In this document: positions 58,044 through 61,011 of the stretch, piece after piece
How the letters are laid out: the number at the start of each line of letters is the position of its first letter
How positions within the stretch are numbered: the first letter of the stretch is position 1
NCBI RefSeq assembly: GCF_900101465.1
Contig: NZ_FMZM01000016.1
Location: 1-64,000 of the forward strand
DNA length: 64,000 bases
Reading direction: 5' to 3'
Origin: Nocardioides lianchengensis
Lineage (GTDB): Bacteria; Actinomycetota; Actinomycetes; Propionibacteriales; Nocardioidaceae
Position numbers and translations under genes: made by a program
Notes under the pieces: generated by a model
What the model was told of the DNA's origin: nothing
Seen by the model: only the letters and a program-made list of their open reading frames with translations
Database searches by the model: none

Positions 58044-58739
58044 GTGCAGACCATCGGACTCGTGGGCGGGCTGAGCTGGGAGAGCTCGGCGGCCTACTAC
58101 GAAGCCCTCAACCGTGGCGTCGAGCAGCGGGTGAGCCCGCTGAGCTCGGCCCGGACGGTCCTCTCCTCCGTGGACTTCGCGGAGGTGACCGCCCTGCAGG
58201 AGGCCGAACGCTGGGACGACGTCGCCGCCCTGCTCACCGCCGCCGCCCAGGGGGTCGAGCGCGCCGGCGCCGACTTCCTGCTGCTGTGCACCACGACCTT
58301 CCACCTGGTCGCCGACCAGGTGGCCGAGGCGGTCGGGATCCCGCTGCTCCACCTCGCCGACGTGCTCGCCGACGCCGCCGACGAGGCGGGCGTCCGGTCG
58401 ATCGGCTTCGTCGGCACCACCTTCGCCATGTCACGACCGTTCTTCACCGACCGGCTGGCGGCCCGCGGGCTGACCGTGCACGTGCCGGACCCGGCCCGCC
58501 ACGACGAGGTCAACCGGATCATCTACGACGAGCTCGTCCACGGGCGGGTCGAGACCGCGTCGCGGCGCACCGCCGTCTCGGTGATCGAGGAGCTGTGGGA
58601 CGCCGGTGCCGGCGGGGTCGTGCTCGGCTGCACCGAGCTGGAGCTGCTCATCCGGCAGGCGGACGTCGACGTCCCCGTCTTCCCGGCGACCACCCTGCAC
58701 GTCGCGGCCGCCCTCGACCGGGCGCTGGGCGCGGACTAG
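58044..58739 (+). CDS. Aspartate/glutamate racemase-family protein
   Basis: The protein has 231 aa from GTG at 58044. IGLVGGLSWESSAAYYEALN (about 4) is the start typical of YgeA-like amino acid racemases. The first catalytic Cys is in LLLCTTTFHLVAD (CTTT instead of CNT, about 78) and the second in VVLGCTELELLI (about 190). PLP-independent racemisation of Asp, Glu or other amino acids is likely. It is 2 nt downstream of tetR. The stop overlaps that of the M4 peptidase as CTAG (58736-58739). Confidence 0.9.
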   Translation: MQTIGLVGGLSWESSAAYYEALNRGVEQRVSPLSSARTVLSSVDFAEVTALQEAERWDDVAALLTAAAQGVERAGADFLLLCTTTFHLVADQVAEAVGIPLLHLADVLADAADEAGVRSIGFVGTTFAMSRPFFTDRLAARGLTVHVPDPARHDEVNRIIYDELVHGRVETASRRTAVSVIEELWDAGAGGVVLGCTELELLIRQADVDVPVFPATTLHVAAALDRALGAD

Positions 58740-59983
58740 ACGTCCAGCAGGAGCTGGGCCAGGCGGCGCAGCTCGGGGGTGAGCCCCTGCTCCGGCACCC
58801 GTGCGGTGCCGCCGGGGAGGTCGAACTCGTAGACGAACATGTCGGGCCGCGGCGCGCCGCCGGGGACCGCCCCCAGGTCGACCCGGCCGAGCAGGTCGCG
58901 CACCTCGGCGCACCGCGCGTCGGACGAGTCCAGGTCGAGCCGGCCGGCGGCCGTCCGCCCCGTGAACCCGCCGGTACGACGGACCGCGGCGACCGGTCCC
59001 GAGGCCGTCACCCCGACCCCGGCCCAGGCCGCGCGGACCGCGTCGGCGTGCTCGCCCGCAGCGGCGACGGTGGCCGCCGCGAAGGAGGCGAAGTCGGCCC
59101 GCGGATCGACCCGGCCGCCGGTGAGCGCGTCGTACCAGATCCGGCCGGCGCCCTCCCAGGTGCGACCGCCGATCGCGGTCGCGGCCAGCTGGAAGGCCCG
59201 GTTGGGGATCCCGGAGTTCACGTGCACGCCGCCGTTGTCGTCGGTCGTCTCGACGTAGTCGTCGAGATGGCCCGGCTGGGGGTCCTGCCCGAGCAGCGGA
59301 TCGTCGTAGGCGGTGCCGGGGGCGGCCATGTCGCGCAGCCCCCGGGCGGCCACCCCCGGGAGGAAGAGCCCGACCCCGATCAGCCAGTCGGCCCGGTCGG
59401 CGGTCTGGTCGAGCAGCCGCTGGCGCAGGCAGGCGGCGAAGACGTCGGAGACCGACTCGTTGAGCGCCCCCGACTGGCCCTCGTAGACCAGGCCGGCCGT
59501 GTGCTCGGTGACCGCGTGGGCGAGCTCGTGGCCGAGCACGTCGACCGGCTTGGTGAACCGATCGAAGACCCGGCCGTCGCCGTCGCCGAAGACCAGCTGG
59601 CGGCCGTCCCAGAACGCGTTGGCGTAGCCCTCGCCGTAGTGGACGGTCAGCGAGACCGGCGCCCCCTCCCCGTCGTACGACGACCGCCCGTAGACCTCGG
59701 CGAAGAGCCCGAGCGCCGCCGCCACCCCGTCCGCCGCCTCGTCGACCGCCGCGTCGCCCGTGGCGGCCTGCCCGGCCGCGCGCACCGGGTCGCCCGGGAG
59801 CGCGGTGGCCCCGCCGGCGTCGTGCACCGTCCAGGGCGCTGCGCCGGCGTCCGCGGGGAACGGCGCGGCGGCCCGCAACGAGCGGATCCGCCCGTCCTCC
59901 ACCAGGGTCAGCCGGTAGGGCGCCGGGCCGACGGTGTCGGCGAGCCGGCGGAGTAGGTAGGGCGGCAGGAAGGAGCACCTCAT
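58736..59983 (-). CDS. Protealysin-like M4 metallopeptidase with fused emfourin-type C-terminal domain
   Basis: The protein has 415 aa from ATG at 59983; a GTG further out (60019) adds 12 residues, but MRCSFLPPYLLRRLA is the usual start of protealysin-like precursors. The short propeptide carries the PPY motif. The zinc site is HELAHAVTEH (about 152) with the third ligand Glu in ALNESVSD (about 176) and the active His in GGVHVNSGIPN. There is no signal peptide. The last 85 residues (58739-58993) read RRTGGFTGRTAAG, DMFVYEFDLPGGTARV and LTPELRRLAQLLLD, the pattern of emfourin, the inhibitor usually encoded as a separate neighbour gene. Confidence 0.9.
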   Translation of the reverse strand: MRCSFLPPYLLRRLADTVGPAPYRLTLVEDGRIRSLRAAAPFPADAGAAPWTVHDAGGATALPGDPVRAAGQAATGDAAVDEAADGVAAALGLFAEVYGRSSYDGEGAPVSLTVHYGEGYANAFWDGRQLVFGDGDGRVFDRFTKPVDVLGHELAHAVTEHTAGLVYEGQSGALNESVSDVFAACLRQRLLDQTADRADWLIGVGLFLPGVAARGLRDMAAPGTAYDDPLLGQDPQPGHLDDYVETTDDNGGVHVNSGIPNRAFQLAATAIGGRTWEGAGRIWYDALTGGRVDPRADFASFAAATVAAAGEHADAVRAAWAGVGVTASGPVAAVRRTGGFTGRTAAGRLDLDSSDARCAEVRDLLGRVDLGAVPGGAPRPDMFVYEFDLPGGTARVPEQGLTPELRRLAQLLLDV

Positions 59984-60032: not shown

Positions 60033-60968
60033 TCAGGACAGGAAGCGGACCCGCACCCAGCCGCTGCGGTTGCCGAGCCGGTCGGTGAACCGGACCCGCT
60101 CCAGGACCGACCGGTCCCAGCTGACGACCGTGCGGCCCAGGCGGTGGGCCCGACGGACCGTGCCGTTGCGCCGGGCGGTCTCGAACGAGGCGACGCCGGC
60201 CCCCACGTCGCGCGCCCGGGTCCGCAGCACCCAGCCGCCGCGGCGGTTGCTCCAGCGCGCGTGCGCCTTGGTCACCCAGGGCGGGCTGACGTCGTACCGG
60301 AGGACGTCGGAGACGGTGATCGGCGCGGTGGCGCCGGGGAAGCGCACGTAGATGCGCTGCGGCGTGCCGTCCGGGAGGTCGGCGAGCGTCCAGCGATAGG
60401 TGCAGCGCGCGTCGAGCCGGCGCCGCTGGGCGCCCCAGAACTCGGGGTTGCCCGCGATCTCGACCGCGGTGGTGCCGGCCGGCGTCGCGACCCGGATCGC
60501 GACGGTGCGGCGCCGGGTCCACAGGACACCCCCGGCCGCCTGCACGTACGGCGCGCCGGTGCAGGCGGTGCTCGGCGCCGGCGGAGCGGACGGGGTCCGC
60601 GGCGCGGCGGTGACGGTGACCGGCGAGGAGCTGGCGGTCGACACGCCCACCGAGTTCTCCGCGCGCACGGTGCAGACGACGACGGCACCGACGTCCGCGC
60701 TCCGCACGACGTACGACGCGCCCTCGCCGAGCGGGGTCGATCCGGTCCGCCAGGCGGTGGTCAGGGTCGGCTCGTCGAGCCAGGTCCCGGGTGAGCAGCG
60801 CAGCGTCCCGCCCGGTCGGGCCGGGCCGGTGATGGCGGGCGGGAGGACGTTCTCGGGCGGGTCGGTCTCCGGGTCGGCCTGCGCCGCGGGCGCGACGAGG
60901 AGGGCAGCGGCCACCAGGCCCGCCGCAGCCGCGCCGACCGCGCGGCGGATCCCCCCGAATCCGAACAC
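60033..60968 (-). CDS. Secreted protein with Ig-like N-terminal domain, unknown function
   Basis: The protein has 311 aa from GTG at 60968 (a GTG at 60992 would add eight). A signal peptide (about 1-30, ending AAQA) is followed by an Ig-like stretch with ITGPARPGGTLRCSPGTWLDEPTLTTAWR and VVVCTVRAENSVG, a common repeat in actinobacterial surface proteins. The C-terminal half has WTRRRTVAIRVATPAGTTAVEIAG and VSDVLRYDVSPPWV, several Arg and no catalytic motif. It is 49 nt upstream of the M4 peptidase on the same strand and may be co-transcribed. Confidence 0.82.
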   Translation of the reverse strand: MFGFGGIRRAVGAAAAGLVAAALLVAPAAQADPETDPPENVLPPAITGPARPGGTLRCSPGTWLDEPTLTTAWRTGSTPLGEGASYVVRSADVGAVVVCTVRAENSVGVSTASSSPVTVTAAPRTPSAPPAPSTACTGAPYVQAAGGVLWTRRRTVAIRVATPAGTTAVEIAGNPEFWGAQRRRLDARCTYRWTLADLPDGTPQRIYVRFPGATAPITVSDVLRYDVSPPWVTKAHARWSNRRGGWVLRTRARDVGAGVASFETARRNGTVRRAHRLGRTVVSWDRSVLERVRFTDRLGNRSGWVRVRFLS

Positions 60969-61011
60969 CGATCCAGGGTAAGCCGGGCGCACCGACCGCG
61001 AGGGCTGCTGT

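Follow-up and report, generated by a model that had tools for sequence, protein, structure and literature searches.

The stretch of DNA analysed here (the window; 64,000 nucleotides of a Nocardioides lianchengensis contig) carries on its minus strand one open reading frame, 58736-59983, in which an M4 metallopeptidase is joined to emfourin. This arrangement had been put forward by a first-pass annotation of the sequence, and Pfam matched all three families involved (Peptidase_M4, Peptidase_M4_C and Emfourin) within the single chain. The features of the frame are listed below.

58736..59983, minus strand: whole fused frame, protealysin-like M4 protease and emfourin (ATG at 59983, 415 residues, no internal stop)
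59834..59983, minus strand: short N-terminal propeptide, residues 1 to about 50 (PLN_propep 12.1 bits; alignment of the model with 2vqx)
59975..59977, minus strand: Cys3, which lies four residues ahead of the first Pro and is a candidate ligand of zinc in the latent form
59957..59965, minus strand: PPY of the PPL-type propeptide motif, residues 7-9 (conservation in 67 fused proteins)
59504..59755, minus strand: Peptidase_M4 match, residues 77-160 (Pfam, E 3.8e-24)
59516..59530, minus strand: HELAH zinc motif (H152, E153, H156), invariant in 67/67 fused proteins
59009..59497, minus strand: Peptidase_M4_C match, residues 163-325 (Pfam, E 5.1e-45)
59456-59458, minus strand: E176, third zinc ligand, within Peptidase_M4_C, invariant in 67/67
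59222-59224, minus strand: H254, catalytic His, within Peptidase_M4_C, invariant in 67/67
58991..59008, minus strand: short tether TASGPV, residues 326-331, among the three shortest of 86
58751..58984, minus strand: Emfourin domain, residues 334-411 (PF20242, 30.4 bits; AlphaFold2 model of the tail alone)
58958..58972, minus strand: GGFTG loop, residues 338-342 (conservation across 86 fused tails)
58841..58843, minus strand: D381, invariant Asp preceding the third strand and a candidate for binding zinc in the inhibitor

Both M4 families were matched by all 67 aligned fused proteins, the window's included, and Emfourin by 63 of them at E <= 0.01. The catalytic domain is complete, as annotated, with H152, E153, H156, E176 and H254 invariant in 67/67; the roles of E176 as zinc ligand and of H254 as catalytic residue are assigned by homology with thermolysin. 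The emfourin part makes up the last ~82 residues of the 415. Against PF20242, with a curated cut-off of 27 bits, the whole protein scores 30.4 bits (E 5.5e-7) and the 87-residue tail by itself reaches 34.2 bits (E 3.3e-8), and the landmarks from which emfourin had originally been recognised are all present in the tail: RRTGGF (335-340), DMFVYEFDL (381-389), TARVPEQ and the LTPELRRLAQLL helix. A signal peptide had been reported absent and none is apparent by eye; the N-terminus is instead a short protealysin-type propeptide with PPYLL at residues 7-11.

Upstream on the same strand lies a gene (window 60036-60992) for a 319-residue protein, which ends about 50 bases before the start of the protease; by eye the protein seems to carry a signal peptide, and Pfam gave no match for it at E <= 0.01. 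On the downstream side, an Asp/Glu racemase-family gene converges on the protease. A search of the N. lianchengensis genome with the PF20242 family returned no emfourin, which we take as a failure of sensitivity because the known window copy was missed too; a profile built from relatives recovers that copy at E 4e-29, as the single convincing emfourin of the genome. A second, weak half-match resembling emfourin is found at G000:C1:189070-189195 (E 0.0099). The genome also holds two further M4-type matches, the one listed having 33% identity.

Amongst the 86 distinct fused tails collected in this study (see below), R336, G338, G339, G342 and D381 are identical throughout, and their equivalents are kept in 46 or 47 of 47 emfourins encoded by a separate adjoining frame (split emfourins), the exceptions being gaps; for D381 the Asp is present in 86/86 fused tails and 47/47 split emfourins. 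Y385 occurs in 86/86 and 41/47 respectively, and F340 is kept in 71 of the 86 fused tails. When the two inhibitor groups were compared by profile alignment (E 1.5e-4, at a probability of only 52), D381 aligned with the Asp of GDQRY, and RRTGGF with REGGF, in Serratia-type emfourin. All eight of the stand-alone emfourins tested match PF20242. On the Pfam score, the profile alignment and the invariant residues, the tail of the window protease belongs to the emfourin family. An NMR paper on emfourin (J Biol Chem 2023) reportedly describes inhibition through an Asp placed on the catalytic zinc together with a nearby hydrophobic loop. In the window protein, such contacts would most naturally be made by D381 and the GGF loop.

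The window protein was modelled by AlphaFold2 using 66 fused relatives, giving a mean pLDDT of 91.9 and a pTM of 0.86 at full length. Strands of the tail are predicted at 331-338, 345-350, 383-389 and 392-397 and helices at 357-367 and 403-413; folded alone, the tail reaches a pLDDT of 94.1 and a pTM of 0.83, with the order beta-beta-alpha-beta-beta-alpha. The nearest solved structure to the window protein is the protealysin precursor 2vqx (E 4.3e-103), to which residues 2-326 of the model align with the propeptide included (Z 45.8, 1.4 A over 310 residues). Since the propeptide aligns as in that precursor, the emfourin tail of the full-length model probably does not occupy the cleft. A pTM of 0.86 exceeds what would be expected of the protease alone, only about 78% of the residues, with a randomly placed tail, and hints indirectly that the model gives the tail a defined place.

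The tail model is weakly similar in structure to Serratia emfourin 6zyg (Z 4.7, 5.2 A over 73 residues, 16% identity), which ranks below eight Mago entries. Foldseek with the tail model gave no match at E <= 0.001, 6zyg being absent among the best 50 rows, and neither the tail nor its profile retrieved emfourin when the PDB was searched by sequence; 6zyg was reached there only through the Serratia-type protein of locus L079. Other weak matches of the domain model are to Mago nashi (Z 6.4) and to protease inhibitors of the SSI/sermetstatin type (Z 4.4).

The distribution of the fusion was surveyed in 98 Nocardioides genomes, with a protease called at E <= 1e-100 and emfourin at E <= 1e-4. The protease was found in 60, and the identical 60 carry emfourin (lists compared by eye). 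Single-chain fusions account for 57 of these, 40 recognised from the loci read and 17 from a single match that continued unbroken at least as far as residue 411, or from loci L128-L130. The other three (G049, G060 and G067) have gene pairs in which the start codon overlaps the stop by 4 bases. Neither protease nor emfourin was detected at these thresholds in the remaining 38 genomes, in one of which (G020) a more distantly related protease (E 5.6e-68) is present without emfourin. A second, weak emfourin (E 2.1e-5) lies beside a second protease in G043.

A profile search of 130 fetched loci gave 72 distinct fused proteins, 39 emfourins in separate frames and 10 proteases with none detected; nine loci duplicate fused proteins, and two genes appear twice among the 39 split loci. 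A further 60 loci from the order were added, mainly picked because the match stopped short of the tail. The combined set holds 175 distinct proteases, 86 fused, 47 split and 42 without a detected adjoining emfourin, numbers which owing to this selective choice of loci are not frequencies. Fused loci with names come from Nocardioides, Marmoricola, Pimelobacter, Nocardioidaceae, Propionibacteriaceae, one unplaced actinobacterial assembly, Antribacter and Myceligenerans. Amongst 246 class-wide genomes, 77 match the fused profile at E <= 1e-60, and outside the window's order only two (G393 and G512) run full length without a stop; many class-wide pairs lie in one frame with a single intervening stop. 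Read-through of the stop codon in such one-frame pairs was considered and set aside, only 5 of the 39 split loci being in frame, which is no more than chance.

The 42 proteases without an adjoining emfourin are of several kinds. A single clade of family f3 (genomes of about 7.5-9.5 Mb, probably Kribbella) contributes 27. To regard this clade as having a protease without emfourin would be wrong, as each of the 27 genomes has kept emfourin as an unlinked gene well away from the protease (best E no higher than 5e-14); in five of these emfourin loci that were read, no protease was found within about 3.5 kb. A weaker second emfourin match occurs in 18 of the 27 genomes. In place of emfourin, the f3 proteases (27 loci within L135-L171) bear a tail of 27-144 residues, for the most part rich in Pro/Ser/Thr, and in it a motif like LMRAAxTxL..TPP matched as a pattern in 24 of the 27 and similar by eye in two more. 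Five others are enterobacterial, with an emfourin beyond the reach of the profile; Pfam identified it in the next gene in 3/3 cases put to it. The last ten are L102, L125-L127, L132, L164 and L173-L176. Protease L132 is nested among fused ones, and no emfourin was found in its genome (G294) at E <= 0.01. L125-L127 and L174-L176 form a second protealysin-like clade, with a HEXXH motif and no adjoining emfourin, and four of its six genomes (G021, G090, G304 and G320) also carry a fused protein.

Two trees were used for the history of the fusion, one of 60 rows rooted on Streptomyces relatives and Actinomadura and one of 175 rows built with a simpler model. The three states are strongly clustered on the larger tree (8 changes vs 75 in shuffles) and the smaller requires 5 changes between fused and not fused (bootstrap 5-95% range 5-5), although counts of this kind cannot tell fusion from fission. 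In the 60-row tree the clade of 46 rows which would hold the fusion at its base has support of 93/83 and is not starred. The three split Nocardioides (100/99) are sister to the fused L008 and L178 inside a 100/99 clade, and this nested re-split was recovered in both trees. Support is 91/73 for the re-split of L131 and 100/99 for the grouping of L132 with the fused L181. Family f3 is placed inside the fused clade in the 60-row tree (98/94); in the 175-row tree it falls outside, and a clade of 17 split proteins lies inside the group holding the fused ones (89). The simplest history read from these trees would be one old fusion, split again twice, with loss of emfourin in L132 and its unlinking in f3; the single fusion and the descent of f3 from a fused ancestor are tentative, the deepest steps being uncertain, because the two trees disagree on the placement of f3 and on that of the clade of 17 split proteins. 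Fused genes of Antribacter and Myceligenerans (L045, L056 and L067) nest within those of Nocardioides in the 175-row tree (joining fork 88), which suggests horizontal transfer.

The N-terminal propeptide scores 12.1 bits against PLN_propep in the window protein, under the cut-off of 28.1, and the family reaches E <= 0.01 in only 4 of 67 fused proteins; P7 is nevertheless invariant and P8 at least 90% conserved among the 67. Among the six residues that precede the PP motif there is a Cys in 76 of 86 fused proteins. Across the 175 proteases the count is 118 (in 99 of them the Cys is four before the first Pro), His takes its place in 35, and the Serratia protein of L079 has neither ahead of the motif. 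The Cys or His could possibly be a zinc ligand. In protealysin the first self-cut falls just upstream of the PPL motif, within the cell, and activation of the precursor follows lysis (PMC6778150). The equivalent first cut is expected here between S4 and F5, which would put Cys3 at P2, possibly in a contact with zinc resembling a cysteine switch.

Taken together, these observations favour, at a probability of roughly 0.6, a latent cytoplasmic protealysin-type metalloprotease which carries its own emfourin inhibitor as a tethered C-terminal domain acting in cis. The enzyme would be made with the propeptide blocking its cleft, and the first self-cut would fall just before the PPL motif. The tethered emfourin could then enter the vacated cleft, D381 contacting the catalytic zinc while the GGF loop sits in the substrate pocket. 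Fusion would fix a 1:1 ratio and a high local concentration of inhibitor, so that on lysis the inhibitor would be undilutable, unlike in the two-gene form, and activity would need the tail to be removed or displaced by something else. That the tail inhibits its own catalytic domain is plausible from the occurrence of protease and emfourin in the same 60 genomes, 57 of them with the fusion; against it stand the probable position of the tail outside the cleft in the model, the short tether of the window protein, the faster evolution of fused tails (quantified below), the weak structural match to 6zyg, the HEXXH relatives that lack an adjoining emfourin and the lack of any emfourin hit in G294. 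Serratia emfourin forms a 1:1 complex with protealysin at the region of the active site, and substrates are cut by protealysin only when emfourin is absent (PMC9505478). Given the conserved propeptide motif, both blocks would be expected to use a single cleft, one after the other. The fuller scheme, with two successive locks (the propeptide, possibly through Cys or His on zinc, and then the tethered emfourin) and one old fusion followed by splits and relocations, is offered tentatively.

The tether between the two domains bears on how long the chain would stay intact. Across the 86 fused proteins its length is unconserved, spanning 5-86 residues (median 20), and it consists to 84% of G/A/S/P/T/D/E. 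L/I/F/M make up 2.4% of it, vs 17% in emfourin and 14% in the catalytic domains, and are absent altogether from 53 of the 86 tethers. M4 enzymes cut before hydrophobic residues, and tethers so poor in L/I/F/M therefore look like poor sites of self-cleavage. The S1' subsite is indeed described as the main determinant of specificity (PMC6778150). The release of the tail by self-cleavage, which the first-pass annotation had suggested, is thus unsupported, although the tether argues against it only mildly, its make-up being usual also for flexible linkers. The fusion might alternatively serve mere co-production, the tether being cut soon by host or self proteolysis and the products acting as an ordinary pair. 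The same lineages do switch between fusion and genes overlapping by 4 bases, as if the forms were interchangeable, and the sequence of the tether is unconserved; but the depletion of L/I/F/M in tethers whose length is free to vary, and the retention of the fused state in nearly all protease-bearing Nocardioides genomes, make this explanation rather unlikely.

Tether length also bears on whether the tail might act in trans, on a neighbouring molecule or another M4 enzyme. With about 6 residues, the window tether may be too short to reach its own active site; such tethers of 5-6 residues occur in three proteins, the window's included, two further M4-type proteins are indicated in its genome, and thermolysin too is inhibited by Serratia emfourin (PMC9505478). 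In the other 83 of 86 fused proteins, on the other hand, the tether has at least 14 residues, and emfourin and the attached protease diverge in step (Mantel r 0.77 over 86 fused proteins, 0 of 999 permutations as high), a correlation partly expected as shared descent alone would also give it. We consider action in trans improbable.

The tethered tail also appears to be maintained as an inhibitor. Its median dN/dS is 0.31 (50 close pairs with catalytic identity over 83%) against 0.13 for the more slowly evolving split emfourins (34 pairs), with similar values for the catalytic domain of the fused and split forms (0.20 and 0.23); by these ratios the fused tail is under purifying selection, weaker than that on split emfourins. 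This faster evolution, and the resemblance of the domain model to unrelated folds besides emfourin, could be expected if the tail had become a folding or targeting domain with inhibition lost, but the R, GG, G and Asp of separate emfourins are invariant in the fused ones, which renders such a loss very unlikely. Because the inhibitor residues are invariant and selection is purifying, the fused tail most probably still functions as an inhibitor, one physically tied to its target. An artefact of frameshift, assembly or gene calling is hardly conceivable: genes that overlap by 4 bases might be joined through a small indel, yet the fusion is in frame in 57 of 60 genomes and in 86 distinct proteins with tethers alike in make-up.

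The fusion is good evidence that the emfourins of these actinobacteria target the adjoining protealysin. It also offers a fixed 1:1 chain of enzyme and inhibitor for structure work, and its fused, overlapping and unlinked relatives allow the effect of tethering on protease control to be studied. The authors of the Serratia work suggest for protealysin and emfourin a possible role as an attack-and-immunity pair (PMC9505478); this role is disfavoured here, because a fused inhibitor would travel with the weapon. No report of a protease–emfourin fusion was found in the titles and opening lines of abstracts from the open literature searched; the main emfourin papers (2021, 2023) may hold a prior mention.

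Amongst known systems the closest is the pair of protealysin (2vqx) and emfourin M4in (6zyg) of Serratia proteamaculans, which shares with the window fusion the protease subfamily with its short PPL propeptide (51% identity in the Foldseek alignment), the inhibitor family by Pfam and the gene order. It differs in consisting of two proteins from neighbouring genes, whereas the window has one chain; among enterobacterial gene pairs, those of L079 (Serratia) and L107 (Erwinia) share an overlap of 4 bases, and that of L085 (Rahnella) is adjoining. In Streptomyces, Actinomadura, Frigoribacterium, Arthrobacter and others, emfourins that stand alone next to M4 genes have the same invariant R, GG, G and D, but are encoded in a separate frame, with possible starts from 4 bases of overlap to about 250 bases downstream. 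Thermolysin-type M4 proteases have the catalytic fold and zinc site in common with the window protease and differ in having a long propeptide and in being secreted; they are not known to carry an emfourin domain. The window protein is thus a conserved single-chain version of the known protealysin/emfourin pair, as judged from its sequence, and in the sampled Nocardioides the fused arrangement is the rule.
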